Part shown: in pieces, positions 1,343 to 8,122 of the stretch
How positions within the stretch are numbered: the stretch's first letter is position 1
Layout: every line of letters begins with the position of its first letter
DNA from: Sulfurovum sp.
Lineage (GTDB): Bacteria; Campylobacterota; Campylobacteria; Campylobacterales; Sulfurovaceae
Assembly: GCA_030622375.1 (NCBI GenBank)
Contig: JAUXGC010000023.1
Coordinates: 1 to 14,259 of the forward strand
Length of the DNA stretch: 14,259 nucleotides
Direction: 5' to 3'
Position numbers and translations under genes: made by a program
The notes under the pieces: generated by a model
Told to the model about the DNA's origin: nothing
Database searches by the model: none
Seen by the model: the letters and a program-made list of their open reading frames with translations, nothing else

Positions 1343-4063
1343 CTATATTTTCTTTAGTTCTATTCCTTCATTTAAAAGATAAACTATCATTCCTTCAGCC
1401 CTCTTTCCAGTGATATTTGCAATAGCTTTTTTATAATGCCCTACTTGACTTTGATGTTTTAACGCATACTTTTCTGAGCTCTTATAGTCAACTACTAAAC
1501 AATGCTCATCATACTCCAATAACAAATCTATTTGCTTGAGTTCTCCCTCAAAACTTAGCGACTGTTCTTTAGTAATTTTAGCACCAGATAGCATCTGTTG
1601 AAACGCTTCATCTTCTATAAGGTTTCTAACACGCTGTTCTATTTGCCTTAGGCTATTAGCAGTTAATTGTTGCCCGTAACGATTCTGTAATGAAATCATC
1701 GCAGACCCTAAACTCTCCTCATCAAAATTACCCAACATTTCCAAAGCATAATGAAGAGCTGTGCCAAACAAGATGGCTTCATAATCTTTTTCACTCTCCT
1801 CATCTTGCTTGACTATCTCTTGTGTCCCATAGTTAGAAATAACAACACTATCCACTTCATTGATTTGGTGGGCAGGAATGCCCATCCTACATGGTTTTAA
1901 TTCCCCTACACTTATCACTTCCATACCTATCTCATCAAAAATAGACCCCTTAGGCTTACGTATGACTATCAGCCCCTCTGCTGCACGAGTTAAAGCCACA
2001 TAAAGCACATTTTTTCTATCTTTAAGTGCAGAGGACTTTCTCTCTTCCATTATAGAGTCGTACTCATCATCAAAATTCTCTCTGCCTTTTGTTCGGTAGA
2101 GTATTTTATCTATATACAAGTTGTCATTATAGTGGTATACAAGTGCAGATTTATCACTATTGGGTCGTGTTAGTTTGTCTAACAGTATGACATACTCAAA
2201 CTCCAAGCCTTTAGAGCCGTGAATCGTCATTATCTTTGCACCATGCACCGTATTTGAAGCTACAGATATACTAGAGGTTTCAAACTCTTCTATAAATGTA
2301 GGAATATCAGAAAAGCTTGAGCTAAACTCCAATAGATTCAATATATTTAAATCATCATCGAAATACCCAAACTCTCGCACAAGTCTATCAACTACCTGCA
2401 AAGGAGACATAAAAGCAGAGAACCAAGAAGTATCTATATCTTTAAGCAATTTTCCTACTTTTAAAAGTAATGCTTTGGCGTCTATTTTTTCGCCATAAAA
2501 GAGGTAAGATACCATCGCGACCAGTGCTGCAATTTTAGGAATACTCTTCAAGGAGCTAGAAGTCTTTAAGAGTGTGTCTATCTCCTCATGCTGACAAGCT
2601 TCTTGCAGACTTTGTCCATCTTTGTTAGTATTAACCAAAAAGGCAATGTCATCCACATTTACTCCTACATCCAAAAGCCTTTTAGCTTGTTTCACTGCCT
2701 CATCTATAATCTCTTCAGACTCTAACACCTCTACATAACCCTCAGATGCACCAGTAAAGCTCTTCTGGGGCACATACCCATCCATAACAGGCTCAAACCA
2801 CCTATTTACTTGCTCCACAACATTTTTAGAACTTCGGTAGTTGGTATCCATGGGCAATATCTTTACACCATAATTCTCTGCCACCTTGTCAAACAACTCT
2901 TCCACTCCACCACGGAAACGGTAAAGCGACTGCTTAGTATCTCCCACATAAAAAAAACTCTTAAATTCACTCTGTCCATGCCCTGCAAAGATTTCATCTA
3001 TGAGTGGTTTTAGAAGCAAAAATTGCAAAGTGGAAGTGTCTTGAAACTCATCGAGTAGTATATGTTTAAACTTGGCATCTATTTTAAAATACAAAAACTC
3101 TTTACTTATGCTCTCATGTAAAAGTCTATAGGTAAAATATGTCAAATCATCAAAACTCAAAACCCCTGAAAGTTTTGCATTTGTTATGTTTGCATTTCTA
3201 TAATAGTCATATATTTTAAAAAGACTATGCAAAACTACTGACTCTTTAGCTTTTACCCAAAGCTTCAAAGCCTCTTTGAGTTGTTTGTAAATAGACTCTA
3301 TCTCATCATTCATACTCTTTTTAAACCAAGAGTGCTCCCCTAAAAACTCTTTTTCAAACAGACCTTTACCAAACAATTCTTTCACACTTTTTGTTTCAAA
3401 CTGCCCCATGCACCGTTTTGTAGATTTGGCATTTTCAAGGGCTTTTACCATAGATACCCTAAGCACTTCTATCTGATCTTCTTGTTTTCTCAAAGAGAAT
3501 GAGAGCTCCTCTTGCTCTGGCAATAGAGGATCCACCTTATAAAAATTCTGCATCAAATCAAAGATTTTTCCAAATCGTTTATCTTCTATATCTATAGCCA
3601 ACTTCACAAGAGAAGAGAGCAATCCCTCTGCTTGTACTTCTTCAAGAAAATGCAACTCCAACTTCTCATGACCCTGCTCTTTAGTCACAAAATCAGGCTC
3701 AAGCCCCAACTCCAAAGAGGCAGAACGCAGTATGGAAGAAAAAAAGCTATCAAGTGTCACGATATAAGAAGTACTAGACAAAAACCTGGTCAACACCGCT
3801 GGCTGCTTCTCGAACAATACCTCTTTAATAAATCCAGTCTCCATCAAAACAGCTTCTAAAAATGCTTTATTGTCCCCAAGAGTACGCAAAGAGTCCACCA
3901 CCCTCTCACGCATTTCTGCTGCTGCCTTGTTAGTAAAGGTCGCTGCCAATATACTACTAGGTGACTCTCCCATAAAAAGTAGTGATATGTAACGAACCGA
4001 AAGTGCAAAGGTTTTACCTGACCCTGCTGAGGCGGAGTAGGCTAAAAATGGTTTAAAACTCAT
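1343..4063 (-). CDS. addA: AddA/RecB-like UvrD-family helicase-nuclease subunit
   Basis: This is a superfamily 1A ATP-dependent helicase with a C-terminal PD-(D/E)XK nuclease, the AddA subunit that partners AddB in processing double-strand breaks for RecA. Counted from the TTG at 4069, the motifs are: Walker A ASAGSGKT (13-20), motif II DEFQDT (340-345), motif III GDTKQSLYRFRGG (about 376-388), motif IV DTNYRSS (408-414), motif V TIHGSKGLEFEYVIL (615-629) and motif VI VALTRAAEGL (691-700). The nuclease residues follow: H773 in FGTALH, D848 in QIDLL, and D861/K863 in VVDYKSS. All are intact, so the enzyme should be active. The ATG at 4063 is preferred; the TTG at 4069, six bases upstream, is an alternative with closer spacing to GAAGGG (4080-4075). 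A repeat element begins at 4081, so the leader abuts repeat DNA. At about 906 residues it is shorter than Bacillus AddA, as is common in this phylum. Confidence 0.93.
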   Translation of the reverse strand: MSFKPFLAYSASAGSGKTFALSVRYISLLFMGESPSSILAATFTNKAAAEMRERVVDSLRTLGDNKAFLEAVLMETGFIKEVLFEKQPAVLTRFLSSTSYIVTLDSFFSSILRSASLELGLEPDFVTKEQGHEKLELHFLEEVQAEGLLSSLVKLAIDIEDKRFGKIFDLMQNFYKVDPLLPEQEELSFSLRKQEDQIEVLRVSMVKALENAKSTKRCMGQFETKSVKELFGKGLFEKEFLGEHSWFKKSMNDEIESIYKQLKEALKLWVKAKESVVLHSLFKIYDYYRNANITNAKLSGVLSFDDLTYFTYRLLHESISKEFLYFKIDAKFKHILLDEFQDTSTLQFLLLKPLIDEIFAGHGQSEFKSFFYVGDTKQSLYRFRGGVEELFDKVAENYGVKILPMDTNYRSSKNVVEQVNRWFEPVMDGYVPQKSFTGASEGYVEVLESEEIIDEAVKQAKRLLDVGVNVDDIAFLVNTNKDGQSLQEACQHEEIDTLLKTSSSLKSIPKIAALVAMVSYLFYGEKIDAKALLLKVGKLLKDIDTSWFSAFMSPLQVVDRLVREFGYFDDDLNILNLLEFSSSFSDIPTFIEEFETSSISVASNTVHGAKIMTIHGSKGLEFEYVILLDKLTRPNSDKSALVYHYNDNLYIDKILYRTKGRENFDDEYDSIMEERKSSALKDRKNVLYVALTRAAEGLIVIRKPKGSIFDEIGMEVISVGELKPCRMGIPAHQINEVDSVVISNYGTQEIVKQDEESEKDYEAILFGTALHYALEMLGNFDEESLGSAMISLQNRYGQQLTANSLRQIEQRVRNLIEDEAFQQMLSGAKITKEQSLSFEGELKQIDLLLEYDEHCLVVDYKSSEKYALKHQSQVGHYKKAIANITGKRAEGMIVYLLNEGIELKKI

Positions 4064-4080
4064 ATACAACCATGCCCTTC

Positions 4081-4181
4081 GGAAGTGTAGACTTTAGTCC
4101 CACCCCACAATCCTAACTGTAAGGAGATTTTGTGTTTTAAAAATAATTTTAACTTCTGGTGGGAGTAAACTCTCCACTTCC
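4081..4181. repeat. BIME-like 101-bp repeat, copy 1
   Basis: Two inverted REP-type hairpins flank a spacer. The left arm (4081-4104) starts GGAAGTG and ends CCCACC. The right arm (4153-4181) carries GTGGGAG-TAAA-CTCTCCAC followed by TTCC. The spacer shares CACAATCC-AACT-TAAGG with copies 2 and 3, then diverges. The right arm starts 2 bases after the transposase stop codon, and the left arm ends against the addA ribosome binding region. Copy length is exactly 101 bases, the same as copies 2 and 3. Confidence 0.9.
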
Positions 4182-4183
4182 TG

Positions 4184-4708
4184 CTATTCATACAAACCAT
4201 AAAATCTCTCCCTTGCATCATCTAATCCTGCTTTTATAGCGTTATACTTTATATAGTCATATACCAAAGAAAAATGCTCTTCATTTCGTATAAGTTTATC
4301 AAAATAATCACTAGCCCATACTTGACCTTTTCTATCAAGTAAAGTATTAACTATATGAGTAGAGCCACCTTTTAATATACGCATAATATTTTTCAATTCA
4401 TCATTCTGTTTAAAAAGTATATGAATGTGATTTGGCACTATGGTTAAAGCCATTAATTCATACATCTTTTTATCATAACTTTGAAAGTACTTTTGAATGT
4501 CCAAAACAATTTGTCCATTTAAAAATACTCCATTTTCTGACTTGTCTAAATAAGTATCTATTTTGTACTGCTTTAACCTTTCAGAGTCACTACTACCATA
4601 TATCTTTTTGATATATTCATCCATGCTCTCCTTTGTTCTAAATGTTACAAATTGATAATGGTCTTTCATGTCTATATGTGGGAGATTTGAATGTTTTACT
4701 TTGGTCAA
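4184..4708 (-). CDS. REP-associated tyrosine transposase (RAYT, Y1/HUH family)
   Basis: The 174-residue protein belongs to the IS200/IS605-like Y1 transposase fold. The metal-binding HUH pair is in VPNHIHILF (H94, H96), and the predicted nucleophile is Y152 in YIKYNAIKAGL, which matches the RAYT signature YIxxNPxKAGL apart from Ala for Pro. WASDYFDKLIRNEEHF (131-146) matches the usual W-x-x-x-F-D-x-x-I-R segment before it. Such enzymes nick and rejoin single-stranded DNA at REP hairpins. The start is TTG at 4708, supported by AAAGGA 6 bases upstream; the next in-frame ATG would remove 13 residues and lacks such a site. The length is typical and both active-site motifs are intact, so it is probably functional. 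REP hairpins sit 2 bases after its stop and 26 bases before its start. It lies between addB and addA, outside the conserved gene order. Confidence 0.9.
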   Translation of the reverse strand: MTKVKHSNLPHIDMKDHYQFVTFRTKESMDEYIKKIYGSSDSERLKQYKIDTYLDKSENGVFLNGQIVLDIQKYFQSYDKKMYELMALTIVPNHIHILFKQNDELKNIMRILKGGSTHIVNTLLDRKGQVWASDYFDKLIRNEEHFSLVYDYIKYNAIKAGLDDARERFYGLYE

Positions 4709-4734
4709 TTATATTCCTTTAACATACGCTCTTC

Positions 4735-4758
4735 GGAAGTGGAGAGTTTACTCCCACC
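4735..4758 (+). repeat. Single REP hairpin upstream of the RAYT gene
   Basis: GGAA is followed by GTGGAGAGTTTACTCCCAC and C. The fold is a GTGG/CCAC stem, one bulged A, a GAG/CTC stem and a TTTA loop. It is the exact reverse complement of the right-hand arms of BIME-like copies 1 and 2. It stands alone, 7 bases before copy 2, so this cluster holds three hairpins. Confidence 0.85.
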
Positions 4759-4765
4759 TACTCTT

Positions 4766-4866
4766 GGAAGTGGAGACTTTTAGTCCCACACACAATCCCA
4801 ACTATAAGGAAATTTTATATTTCTATCTCAGTTACAGCTTCTGGTGGGAGTAAACTCTCCACTTCC
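4766..4866. repeat. BIME-like 101-bp repeat, copy 2
   Basis: Left arm 4766-4789 (GGAAGTGGAGACTTTTAGTC, then CCAC), spacer 4790-4837, right arm 4838-4866 identical to that of copy 1. The spacer closely matches copy 3 (CACAATCC-AACTATAAG, AATTTTATATTTCT, TCAGTTA). The similarity to copy 3 continues for TTGAT beyond the right end. The left arm shows a paired change (GACT/AGTC in place of GAG/CTC) that preserves the stem. Confidence 0.9.
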
Positions 4867-4939
4867 TTGATATGGCTACTTACATTTAAAGTTTAATACC
4901 AAACCCAAACATTTCAAAAATACAAAAACAAAGGTCAAA

Positions 4940-5500
4940 TTATTGTCTGCCTCGTACACAACGAACATAGTACTTGCGTGTCTTATAGTAGTGGCGTGTG
5001 TGGCTATCCTTAAAGAGCACGAGCCACGCGCCCCCAGTATCGGATACATACACGGAAGAAGACCAGTAGTAGTCTGAGGCAGAAAATCCTTTTTTTCTAT
5101 AGCAAGATTGATATTTTGGGTCTCCAATATTTTCAATATCTGCATCCACTACCCCTCCGCAATCAGTGATGACTTTTTTAAGTTCATAAATATTTGGTAG
5201 CCTTCCTCCACTGACACTGCAGATTGTTTGTGCATCTTGCCAGTTTGCACTACACATACCTTTATATAGTTCTCCACCATTACTACTGCAAGTACTGCTA
5301 CTAGGGGTTATCCATTTATCTGCTTCTCTTTTGAGGGTGCTTGTTTTCCTAGCTAAACCGCAAATGCTACTTATCTCTGTTTTTGAGAACCCCTTATCTA
5401 TGAGCTTCATCACTTCACTCTTGCTACAATCTGCATGGCTACTGCTACCAAACAAAGCCATTAGCAAAATAATTATGCCTAATTTTATTACTGTTTTCAT
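4940..5500 (-). CDS. Secreted DUF1566 (Lcl C-terminal domain) protein
   Basis: The 186-residue product has a clear Sec signal peptide, MKTVIKLGIIILLMALFGSSSHA, with cleavage likely after A23. There is no lipobox, so it should be periplasmic or exported. Residues 25-47 form a short helical motif with the pattern SEVMKLIDKGFSKTEISSIC. This is followed by a Cys-rich DUF1566 domain: WQDAQTICSVSGGRLPNIYELKKVI (87-111), YYWSSSVYV (144-152), AWLVLF (158-163) and a closing YYVRCVRG. That domain has a C-type-lectin/FGE-like fold in known relatives and occurs in surface proteins; the ligand is unknown. AAGG lies 6 bases before the ATG. A weak -10-like TAAAAT (5534-5529) precedes it. The gene stands alone between BIME-like copies 2 and 3, inside the DNA that separates addB from addA, so it may have arrived with them. 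Confidence 0.8.
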   Translation of the reverse strand: MKTVIKLGIIILLMALFGSSSHADCSKSEVMKLIDKGFSKTEISSICGLARKTSTLKREADKWITPSSSTCSSNGGELYKGMCSANWQDAQTICSVSGGRLPNIYELKKVITDCGGVVDADIENIGDPKYQSCYRKKGFSASDYYWSSSVYVSDTGGAWLVLFKDSHTRHYYKTRKYYVRCVRGRQ

Positions 5501-5567
5501 GTTTTGCCTTGTTGTTTTGATAGTAATGATTTTACTCTATTTTGTCTTAAGTTGGCATATGCTCTTT

Positions 5568-5668
5568 GGAAGTGAAGAGTTCACTCTCACCTCACAATCC
5601 AAACTATAAGTCAATTTTATATTTCTGTTTCAGTTATAACTTCTAGTGGGAGTAAACTCTCCACTTCC
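5568..5668. repeat. BIME-like 101-bp repeat, copy 3
   Basis: The left arm 5568-5591 is the most changed: GTGAAGAGTTCACTCTCAC. It still folds as GTGA/TCAC, bulged A, GAG/CTC with a TTCA loop, because both sides of one base pair changed together. The right arm 5640-5668 carries AGTGGGAG but is otherwise identical to copies 1 and 2. It lies 10 bases downstream of the addB stop codon and upstream of the DUF1566 gene. Confidence 0.9.
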
Positions 5669-5678
5669 TTGATGATTA

Positions 5679-8036
5679 TTATAGATACTCCCCTCTCTCA
5701 CACATCAATGCAAACTCACACCACTTACAAGTTTTCAAGTCTTCACATTTTTGGGCTACAAAACTTTTCGTTTGTTTAAGCTCTATGATGTACTCAAACA
5801 GTAACTCATTTTTTTCTTCTAGAGCTGTTATCTCTTCTATATTTCCATTTTCAAATATTTTTACGAAAGCTAGGTTTATATTTTGGTATTTACTACTTAG
5901 CATTTGAGAATAGATGCTCATCTGTAAATCTGTTAGTGTTTCTAGGTTTTTAGTTTTGTTTGCCTCTTTGGTGGAGCCACTTTTGTAGTCTAGCACCAAA
6001 GTATGAGTAGCATTTTGGTCTATACGGTCTATGCGTCCTTTGAAGCGTAAACCTCCTATGTCACCTTGAGCTTCTTTTTCTCTCTCCACTACTCTCCAAC
6101 CTGTGCTAAAATGCTCTATCTGTGAGCTTACAAAACCTTTGAGTTTCTCTTTCCACAATAGTTTTTGATAAGCTATTTTAGCATCATCAAAAGGGAGTAA
6201 CTTATCTAAAAGAGTATCTATACTTTTTTGCATCTCCTCTCTGCTCTCATAACTCTCTCTTTCTCTATGTAAGTGGTCTAAAAGTGAATGCAAAAATGAA
6301 CCCTCGTTTAACTCATCATCTTTTTTAGCTTGTATCTTTTGGATATGTTTGTAATAATATTTTCTCTTACACTCCAAATAAGTTTTAAGTCTTGAAGCAG
6401 ACCAAACAATAGCAAATGCATCAAAATTTTTGACCATAGGATCTTCTTGTGTAACTAGCTGTGATGGCTGGGAATAGAGTAAGTCAAATTGGGCTTGTAT
6501 TGGCTCTGCCTTTTTGAGTCCTAATTCATATAGAAATTTTGAGGGTAGCTTATTGTCGCTTGTGCTATAAAGTATGACAGATGTTTTGGCTTGTTCTAAT
6601 AATCGCTTGTAGTATTGCTTTTGCAAGGCTTCTCTATCATGTTTGGTAGGCAGATTAGCAAAGGCTCGCACTTGTGAATTTAAAAACTGGTCTTTACTAG
6701 AGGTAGCAGGGACTATGCCTTCGTTAAAATCTACTATGACCACACCCTCAAAACTCACCCCTCTGGTCTCTAGTACACCCATCACGGTAACAAGTCCCCC
6801 TCTAACATCATCTATAGTAATCTTCGAGAGAGCTTTTAGCCACAAAAAGAGCCACTCTTTTTGGCTTAGCTCTTCTGTTTCAAATATTTTTAAAAAGTGT
6901 AGATACTTCTCTTCTACTCTCTCACTATATTTCTCTTTTTTCTCTCCATCAACCAAAGGACTGTCTAATAATTTCAATCCATCAATAAGCGAAAAAAATA
7001 CTTCTACACTACATTTTTTTGTAGGTGTTAATTTTTCTATCTCTTTAAAGTCAAAACCATACTGTTCCAACAAATTTTTACTATTGCTATCATAACTTTG
7101 CCAATACCCATAAAGAGCTTCAAGTGATTTGCAAATACGCCCTTTGCTGTAATCATAACCCATAGCAAAGTTTAGGTTTTGATGTCTGTCAAAAAGTCTA
7201 AAGTGCTCTTTAAAACTCTCATCAGGCAAGATAAGGGCTATCTTTTCGGGCTTTATCCCAGACTTTACCATCTTTTCTATCTCTACAAATGCAACTGCTA
7301 TTTGCTCTTCTTTCTCCTCTACTGAATAGACTTTAGAATTTATATTTGTGTCATTATTTTCTTGGCTCAATATTTTTTTATCTGTCATGCTAAAACTAAT
7401 ATGTTTGTTGTTTGGCAAAATAATTCCCATAGACTTAAAGCGTTCTTGCATCTTCGTATTAAACTTAGAGGTTGCATAATATATAATAATTGGTACTATT
7501 TGTGAGATTTGTTCTACGAGTTCTAATTCAAAGTGACTTAAATATCCTTCTATATGTATCTCTATACTCTCATAGCTTTGCAAAAATCCAACGTTTACTT
7601 TATACAAGGTGGGAATAAAAGCTTTGTCGGTAAACCCACCTTTATCAAGTAGTTTTTTATAGTTTTCTAAAAGTATTTCCAATATATTAAGATGTTGTCC
7701 AAACTCTGCATAAGCATCGGCATCAGCTAAAGTCTTAAAGTCTATCTGCTCTCCTGCCAACTCTTCAAAAAACTTAAATAAGGCATCACTTTTACTAAAA
7801 AAACGGACTAAAGACAAATCTACTTTGAAATCTTTAAAAGCTTCAAAACTTGCTGCTTCACGCAGAAACAATATGCGTTTTATGGGGTCAATCATAACTC
7901 TATCTTCTAGAAGTATAGATCGCTGTTCAAACTCATCCATACGCATAAGTGTAGGCAAAAATCCATCCTGTTCTTTATACTGTGAACTTACTCTTCTTAA
8001 AGATCTTGATGTGGGGTAAATATGGAGTTGATTCAT
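5679..8036 (-). CDS. addB: AddB-like ATP-dependent nuclease subunit with Fe-S nuclease domain
   Basis: The 785-residue AddB partners AddA. The N-terminal helicase-like part (about 1-500) lacks a recognisable Walker A lysine motif, so it is likely a non-motor scanning subunit. It retains a motif-like LVTVMGVLETRGVSFEGVVI stretch near 415-434. The C-terminal PD-(D/E)XK nuclease shows D670 in GRID, D683/K685 in VLDYKSG, and Q705/Y709. Cysteines at C556 (LECKRKY) and in CKWCEFALMC (C770, C773, C779) are spaced as in the 4Fe-4S staple of AddB nucleases. All key residues are present. The ATG at 8036 has no Shine-Dalgarno; an extended -10 box ends 7 bases before it. addA would normally follow directly, but about 1.6 kb of repeat and accessory DNA now intervenes. 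The stop is followed 10 bases later by BIME-like copy 3. Confidence 0.92.
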   Translation of the reverse strand: MNQLHIYPTSRSLRRVSSQYKEQDGFLPTLMRMDEFEQRSILLEDRVMIDPIKRILFLREAASFEAFKDFKVDLSLVRFFSKSDALFKFFEELAGEQIDFKTLADADAYAEFGQHLNILEILLENYKKLLDKGGFTDKAFIPTLYKVNVGFLQSYESIEIHIEGYLSHFELELVEQISQIVPIIIYYATSKFNTKMQERFKSMGIILPNNKHISFSMTDKKILSQENNDTNINSKVYSVEEKEEQIAVAFVEIEKMVKSGIKPEKIALILPDESFKEHFRLFDRHQNLNFAMGYDYSKGRICKSLEALYGYWQSYDSNSKNLLEQYGFDFKEIEKLTPTKKCSVEVFFSLIDGLKLLDSPLVDGEKKEKYSERVEEKYLHFLKIFETEELSQKEWLFLWLKALSKITIDDVRGGLVTVMGVLETRGVSFEGVVIVDFNEGIVPATSSKDQFLNSQVRAFANLPTKHDREALQKQYYKRLLEQAKTSVILYSTSDNKLPSKFLYELGLKKAEPIQAQFDLLYSQPSQLVTQEDPMVKNFDAFAIVWSASRLKTYLECKRKYYYKHIQKIQAKKDDELNEGSFLHSLLDHLHRERESYESREEMQKSIDTLLDKLLPFDDAKIAYQKLLWKEKLKGFVSSQIEHFSTGWRVVEREKEAQGDIGGLRFKGRIDRIDQNATHTLVLDYKSGSTKEANKTKNLETLTDLQMSIYSQMLSSKYQNINLAFVKIFENGNIEEITALEEKNELLFEYIIELKQTKSFVAQKCEDLKTCKWCEFALMCERGEYL

Positions 8037-8059: not shown

Positions 8060-8122
8060 GTAGGGTGTTGTGCCCTCACAACACCTTTAATATATTGGTG
8101 TTGTCAGGGGACAACACCCTAC
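8060..8122. repeat. Inverted pair of GTAG-type REP hairpins (second REP family)
   Basis: Plus-strand arm 8060-8085 reads GTAG then GGTGTTGTG-CCCT-CACAACACC. The opposite arm (8122-8097, minus strand) reads GTAG then GGTGTTGTC-CCCT-GACAACACC. Each is a perfect 9-bp stem with a 4-base loop, and the arms pair with each other at 23 of 25 positions around an 11-base AT spacer. GTAG before a hairpin is the tetranucleotide known from REPs bound by RAYT enzymes. The pair occupies the space between the ccoH-like stop codon and the addB promoter. There is no T-run, so it is not a standard intrinsic terminator. Confidence 0.8.

Follow-up and report, generated by a model that had tools for sequence, protein, structure and literature searches.

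The stretch of DNA analyzed here, called the window, comprises 14,259 nucleotides from Sulfurovum sp. (contig JAUXGC010000023.1 of assembly GCA_030622375.1). It carries a gene for a REP-associated tyrosine transposase (RAYT; REP, repetitive extragenic palindrome) surrounded by one single REP and three REPINs (REP doublets forming hairpins), next to two helicase-nuclease genes, here called addA and addB (Table 1). Each REPIN is built of two inverted REPs with outward tetranucleotide tags and a body of about 55 bp, and REPIN 2 and REPIN 3 are 77-81% identical to REPIN 1. The single REP is a perfect inverted match of the REP arms at 4159-4181, 4844-4866 and 5646-5668, and the left arm of REPIN 2 is 24 nt long owing to its extra T. 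The RAYT gene is itself flanked by inverted GGAA-tagged REPs (4158-4181 and 4735-4758, 24 nt, 100% complementary). End-to-end folding was predicted for all three window REPINs, and the GTAG-tagged REPIN further along the window folds as one long hairpin. The original prediction, made from the letters of the window alone, had described the three inverted-REP units and the single REP around an intact RAYT, and its coordinates hold; the GGAA tag, the other REPIN size classes of the genome and the GTAG-tagged REPIN were missing from it.

Table 1. Features of the window discussed in the text.
Feature	Positions	Strand	Basis
UvrD-type helicase-nuclease gene, called addA on account of its domains and its partner addB; adjoins the insertion junction	1343..4069	-	
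REPIN 1, 101 bp, outward GGAA tags	4081..4181	.	sequence
RAYT / TnpA-REP-like Y1 HUH transposase, 174 aa, TTG start	4184..4708	-	Pfam, alignment, predicted structure
Single REP, GGAA + bulged hairpin	4735..4757	+	sequence, genome pattern match
REPIN 2, 101 bp, one T inserted in left arm	4766..4866	.	sequence
Lcl_C-domain protein gene, 186 aa, between REPIN 2 and REPIN 3	4940..5500	-	domain
REPIN 3, 101 bp, left arm with compensated G-C to A-T stem change	5568..5668	.	
PDDEXK_1 nuclease-helicase partner gene, called addB here; neighbour of the insertion junction	5679..8036	-	
GTAG-tagged canonical REPIN, 63 bp, second REP family	8060..8122	.	pattern match

The HUH motif of the window RAYT is H93-I-H95, the segment corresponding to the tag-contact region of the E. 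coli enzyme reads W130-A-S-D-Y-F-D-K-L-I-R140, and the catalytic tyrosine is most likely Y151, as judged from the RAYT motif. H93, H95 and Y151 are invariant in an alignment of 35 sequences, which bears out the intact HUH pair and tyrosine first reported. The protein scores 35.4 bits against the Pfam Y1_Tnp model (cut-off 23), and the best structural match of its predicted model is the E. coli RAYT 4ER8, with the HUH/Y1 fold; by sequence alone, no relative was found in the PDB. Published marks of RAYTs are an NP(L/V)(R/K)xG motif beside the tyrosine and a conserved N-terminal threonine (PMC2817692; here and below, papers given by PMC number are cited for part of their text). At the first of these the window RAYT has NAIKAG, and the lineage mostly NA or NP. 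T21, invariant among the 35 sequences aligned here, is a candidate for the conserved threonine.

Multiple near-identical transposase copies, a mark of IS200/IS605, were not seen, as there is one match in the window's own genome (an assembly of 1.43 Mb in 202 contigs, 76% complete), where the other Y1 hits are different proteins, and elsewhere in the genus 1-2 matches per genome. Relatives were found neither on plasmids (E limit 1e-15) nor in phages (E limit 1e-10), nor among viral contigs with the query P0064. The RAYT lineage is present in 12 of 78 genomes of the genus (E 1e-8) and, among 398 genomes sampled across the order, in 22, which fall in 10 of 87 genera (E 1e-25). A third Y1 type with the motif ENH[IL]H was observed at nine loci, with several hits in some genomes, and at L095, L101, L110 and L111 it is flanked by CTCGTTCC-type terminal repeats.

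The REP consists of a 5'-GGAA followed by the hairpin GTGG(a)GAS-TTYA-STCCCAC with one bulged base. Folded as single-stranded DNA, three of five REP variants gave the expected hairpin; the other two, which are the divergent left arms of REPINs 1 and 3, take different folds when alone. Covariation was analyzed across 111 distinct REPs drawn from the fetched loci. With the relatedness of the copies uncorrected, stem pairs 8-20 (p=1.6e-15) and 12-17 (p=3.5e-13) stood out, as compared to p=0.03-0.39 for three off-register controls. Pair 8-20 is GC in 70 and AT in 27 of the REPs, pair 12-17 is CG in 79 and GC in 14, and pair 11-18 is AT in 82 and GC in 12. Pairs 8-20 and 12-17 are not forced by the collection, since the collecting consensus left these four positions independent and either base was allowed at each.

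REPs have been defined by a 5' GT[A/G]G, and GTGG is an accepted tag (PMC3686654). A GTGG directly follows GGAA in the commonest REP, so an ordinary RAYT/REP system is conceivable here, with GTGG as the true tag and GGAA as a mere flank of the stem. The conservation of GGAA in the 111 REPs (G 100, G 100, A 93, A 106) leaves room for this, as the collecting pattern contained GGAA and the conservation is thereby partly built in. However, 27 of the 111 REPs have A in place of the last base of GTGG along with a matching change in its pairing partner; the pattern left these two positions independent, so this base behaves as part of the stem. In addition, GGAA stands ahead of unrelated stems (CCGACAGC and GCAAGG, for example) in other lineage REPs that were found without the collecting pattern. 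We therefore regard GTGG as an improbable tag; what precedes the covarying stem is GGAA and not the GT[A/G]G tetranucleotide of the refined REP definition.

The results showed an association of the tag with the RAYT lineage. Among 30 loci of the lineage, at least one GGRD-tagged hairpin lies within 500 bp in 25 and at least two in 21, whereas one GTRG-tagged hairpin was found in five loci and two in none. Seven loci of GTAG-type RAYTs, one of them in the window genome and six in other members of the genus, had at least two GTRG-tagged hairpins in six cases and at least two GGRD-tagged ones in two. Thirty control loci, made up of 25 addA loci without a lineage RAYT and five other Y1-hit loci (one shorter than the scanned stretch), gave GGRD in one and GTRG in two, and GGRD was seen in none of 30 shuffled flanks, which preserve base composition only. 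When no tag was assumed, GGAA ranked first among the 4-mers preceding strict 18-nt hairpins.

In the E. coli enzyme the tag-contact region comprises Q95, E100, H101 and R104, beside W94 (PMC6006769). The corresponding WQ....EH..R is present in all seven GTAG-type RAYTs examined here, a set that includes L094 and not L091, while the seven loci of the tag count include L091 and not L094. In the GGAA lineage, Q follows the W directly in 3 of 28 sequences, D stands at +6 in 27, H at +7 in none and R at +10 in 27; these are the 29 loci other than the broken L027, less L025, which gave no motif. The altered positions equivalent to Q95, E100 and H101 may thus be linked to the altered tag. GTAG-associated subclasses likewise show E100D and at times H101R (PMC6006769), for which reason we put the link between residues and tag forward as a hypothesis.

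Taken together, our results point, with a probability of roughly 0.8, to a REPIN/RAYT lineage in the Campylobacterales with GGAA-type (GG-starting) REP tags instead of GTAG, working by the mechanism proposed below. The occurrence of E100D outside the lineage weighs against this, and so do several other observations. GGAA precedes strict 18-nt hairpins in only 7 of the 30 loci, in competition with AAAG and TTTG (4 each), GGAG and GGAT (3 each) and GTAG (2). Two GG-tagged hairpins are lacking at 9 of the 30 lineage loci, and the bulged REPs of the window are among those scored poorly. Furthermore, the window RAYT stays below the cut-off of the NCBIfam RAYT model NF047646 (62 vs 80 bits, E 5.7e-17). 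As to mechanism, the RAYT probably binds the single-stranded REP hairpin, would read the GGAA tag adjoining it and would nick nearby DNA through its HUH/Tyr site. The unit between two outward-tagged REPs could then be moved or copied, and its content may be a short body belonging to one of the fixed size classes, as in a REPIN, or the RAYT gene itself, as in the genomes G004 and G015.

Further copies were found in the host genome, where their absence would have told against the original prediction: 30 REP matches (at most 3 mismatches) were counted in the 1.43 Mb, against none for a reversed control pattern. Sixteen REPINs were read from this genome, with lengths of 70-71 bp (four), 100-102 bp (eight), 134-135 bp (three) and 126 bp (one). 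The fixed length of 101 bp thus holds exactly for the three window units, the local size class, and is one of three main sizes (about 70, 101 and 134 bp) in the genome. Across 13 of the 23 genomes with REP matches, the lengths of 86 REPINs cluster near 57, 70, 101 and 134 bp; these REPINs come from the fetched loci and do not cover every hit of the 13 genomes. A '132' entry of the window genome, which is the single REP plus REPIN 2, was corrected among the 16 and still stands in the 134 bin of the 86. The bins, which hold 68 of the 86, were set after the lengths had been seen, and the p-value of that count is descriptive only.

Bodies of the same class are alike, as 56%, 54% and 68% of the pairs within the 70, 101 and 134 classes exceed the 99th percentile of shuffles, as compared to 7% within the 57 class and 2-5% between the three larger classes. 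From this likeness, whole REPIN units appear to be inherited or copied. Helical phasing was considered as the cause of the classes, in that 70, 101 and 134 differ by 31-33 bp, but this leaves the 57 class and many other lengths unexplained, and descent better accounts for bodies that resemble each other inside a class and mostly not across classes. The likeness also agrees with the earlier proposal that the whole 101-bp unit is copied, an idea that is that of the published REPIN (Bertels and Rainey 2011, PMC3116915). A clean REPIN target site could not be defined: the four nucleotides before the tag are G-poor, and cleavage at TT or at CT could not be told apart (within 6 nt of the tag, CT 0.48 vs 0.25, TC 0.45 vs 0.26, TT 0.58 vs 0.43). 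The window genome also holds a second, canonical REP family, with 54 matches to GTAGGGTG..CACC (including palindromes counted on both strands) against none for the control, and two REPs of this GTAG family lie upstream of a GTAG-type RAYT on contig C170.

The RAYT lies between addB and addA in the window genome (G000) and in G004, beside addA in G074 and beside addB in G015, where in the last two the contig ends on the other side. In G004 and G015 it is enclosed by a single outward REP pair, like a REPIN with a gene as its body, and in G066 a REPIN occupies the junction. The junction was read in 30 addA loci out of 67 genomes with a match, 21 of which show addB too; the two genes overlap in 10 of these 21 and are separated by 537-1406 bp in the other 11. 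The addB/addA junction is a general insertion spot, as other inserts are present there in other genomes. In three genomes of the genus (L254, L256 and L268) the junction holds inserts of 537-551 bp that look homologous to one another and carry no window-type REP.

The sister genomes G004 and G002 are 96-97% identical on both sides of the junction, and while the overlap is intact in G002, G004 has 635 additional bases; there is no clear excess of mismatches near the site (7 on the left and 4 on the right in the first 100 bases). G004 has 19 REP matches and G002 one, which is common to both. Such a near-identical sister with an empty site and 1 versus 19 REP matches makes gain and loss of the RAYT appear likelier than strict inheritance. 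Out of 13 REP loci of G004 compared with G002, one is shared (L169), nine could not be resolved and three are absent at readable sites. The absent ones are L170, L173 (between 17-bp direct repeats) and L175 (inside a larger inverted-repeat element). At L170 a 97-bp stretch is missing from G002, together with a further 16 and 23 bases beyond the REPs, and the difference may be a gain in G004 or a loss in G002. At L168, L172, L175 and L178, REPs or REPINs of G004 are contained in or adjoin a larger inverted-repeat element (ATTAAGCTAA...TTAGCTTAAT), the end of which is multi-copy in G002 too.

We tentatively propose, at somewhat less than even odds, that this RAYT lineage has recoded its guide, recognizing GGAA-type tags through W-x-D-K-R, and that the gene would still be mobile as a unit bounded by outward REPs, landing repeatedly at addB/addA, with REPINs expanding after its arrival. 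The mobile part of this proposal, and that part alone, competes with another explanation, otherwise compatible with a GGAA-tagged lineage, in which the RAYT is old at addB/addA and vertically inherited, has been lost many times and has had its empty alleles restored by recombination. Consistent with old inheritance, there is apparent homology between the right junctions of G000 and G074 and between the left junctions of G015 and G066, and G066 has its REPIN where the RAYT would be. The RAYT and AddB identities also fall in step among G000, G015 and G004 (66/71, 60/64 and 62/65), which fits vertical descent with losses and speaks against mobility. On the other hand, the same addB/addA overlap recurs in the 10 genus loci, so that the empty state is probably ancestral, and because the insert of G004 extends 5 and 18 bases beyond its REPs, REP excision would not restore the overlap. 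Moreover, in G425, which belongs to a different family, this junction is occupied by a RAYT from another clade, separated from addB by two further reading frames. We therefore find old inheritance doubtful, but a serious contender.

The repeats also occur in relatives without this RAYT, an outcome named beforehand as one that would count against the original prediction: among 66 genus genomes without a lineage RAYT match (E 1e-8), 17 have at least one REP and seven at least eight, and one of the REP-rich genomes, G038, is 99% complete, which weighs against our conclusion. Possibly, REPINs persist because they serve the host, as terminators or mRNA stabilisers, and the RAYT only accompanies them or has been domesticated for a different function. 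The persistence of REPs in these genomes, the description of RAYTs as domesticated, single-copy and vertical (PMC8049555) and the parallel RAYT and AddB identities would be in line with this. REP number nevertheless follows RAYT presence, and the sisters G004 and G002 differ in both. In addition, the junction is missing or broken in four of the seven RAYT-less, REP-rich assemblies: the start of addA is missing in G005, G044 and G067, and the G065 contig begins just before a REP adjoining addA, leaving G038, G051 and G066 without such a gap. A host-element role of this kind thus seems to us unlikely. As has been reported for E. coli (PMC8049555), REPs may persist after their RAYT is lost. Other RAYT-model matches were found in 13 of 15 REP-bearing genomes searched, including G044, G065, G066, G067 and weakly G038, and not in G005 or G051; none of the 30 scanned loci of such matches (L088-L117) has a window-type REP. 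Eight genomes with more distant lineage RAYTs have 0, 3, 0, 0, 0, 0, 3 and 0 REPs.

Elsewhere in the window, an overlapping gene pair at 592-1282 resembles a HepT/MntA type VII toxin-antitoxin, with scores below the NCBIfam cut-offs. Lcl_C-like reading frames, such as the one between the window REPINs, also lie within 1.5 kb of the RAYT at L025, L027 and L323, a proximity that may be due to chance if such genes are common.

REPs have been taken to be defined by GT[A/G]G. A naturally occurring lineage in which both the tag and the residues differ offers a comparison for how Y1 enzymes choose their DNA. As both tag types occur in one genus, and both REP families in the window genome, a tag swap is directly testable, and the G004/G002 pair is a natural case on whether RAYT gain drives REPIN expansion. 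RAYTs are held to be domesticated, single-copy, vertical and not self-copying (PMC8049555), a view that a recoded, mobile lineage would, if true, contradict; horizontal RAYT transfer followed by new REP formation has been proposed earlier (PMC2817692, PMC3686654). In the open-licence literature, no paper joined 'repetitive extragenic palindromic' with 'Campylobacterota', the only match for RAYT with GGAA concerns Alcanivorax small RNAs, and for addAB with RAYT nothing on the addB/addA junction was found among the matches listed.

Among known systems, GTAG repeats have been reported in all proteobacterial divisions including epsilon, with GTAG and CGTC repeats in Sulfurovum NBC37-1, and RAYT-like genes flanked by terminal inverted repeats with a GGGGWSAS motif were also described (PMC3733652). 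Those repeats resemble ours in being tagged short palindromes of the same genus, in having tags-outside dimers as the common dimer kind and in the non-GT repeats flanking some RAYT-like genes. The text sections of that paper name GTAG, CGTC and GGGGWSAS and no GGAA family, which has 19 matches in G004, taken as NBC37-1. The novelty originally seen in a RAYT/REP set outside the gammaproteobacteria is thus weakened; the RAYT with REP pairs, the local expansion and the host in the Campylobacterota are supported. Sulfurovum REPs and whole-unit copying are already published and hence not new, and what looks new is a RAYT lineage with GGAA in place of GT[A/G]G. With the REPINs of Pseudomonas fluorescens SBW25 (PMC3116915) the window shares inverted REP pairs at fixed spacing (71 and 110 bp there) and, presumably, the doublet as the mobile unit, whereas in the genomes read here one REP type bounds several classes (about 57, 70, 101 and 134 bp) and copies number in the tens, not hundreds. 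TnpA-REP subclass 2.4, or RAYT group 4 (PMC6006769), has NH[IFV]H, a YIxNN[P]-like motif and a scatter over phyla in common with our lineage, but the distance from HUH to tyrosine is 58 residues in the window RAYT against a median of 88 there, the residue after W is mostly A, S or E and not Q, and the tag is not GT[AG]G. E. coli TnpA-REP (4ER8) and the REPtron match the window in the HUH/Y1 fold, the inverted-REP flanks, the bulged hairpin and the conserved 5' tetranucleotide. In E. coli, however, this tetranucleotide is GTAG, in which the enzyme tolerates no change (PMC8266576), and the positions occupied there by W-Q-E-H-R are W-A-D-K-R in the window RAYT, with its GGAA tag.
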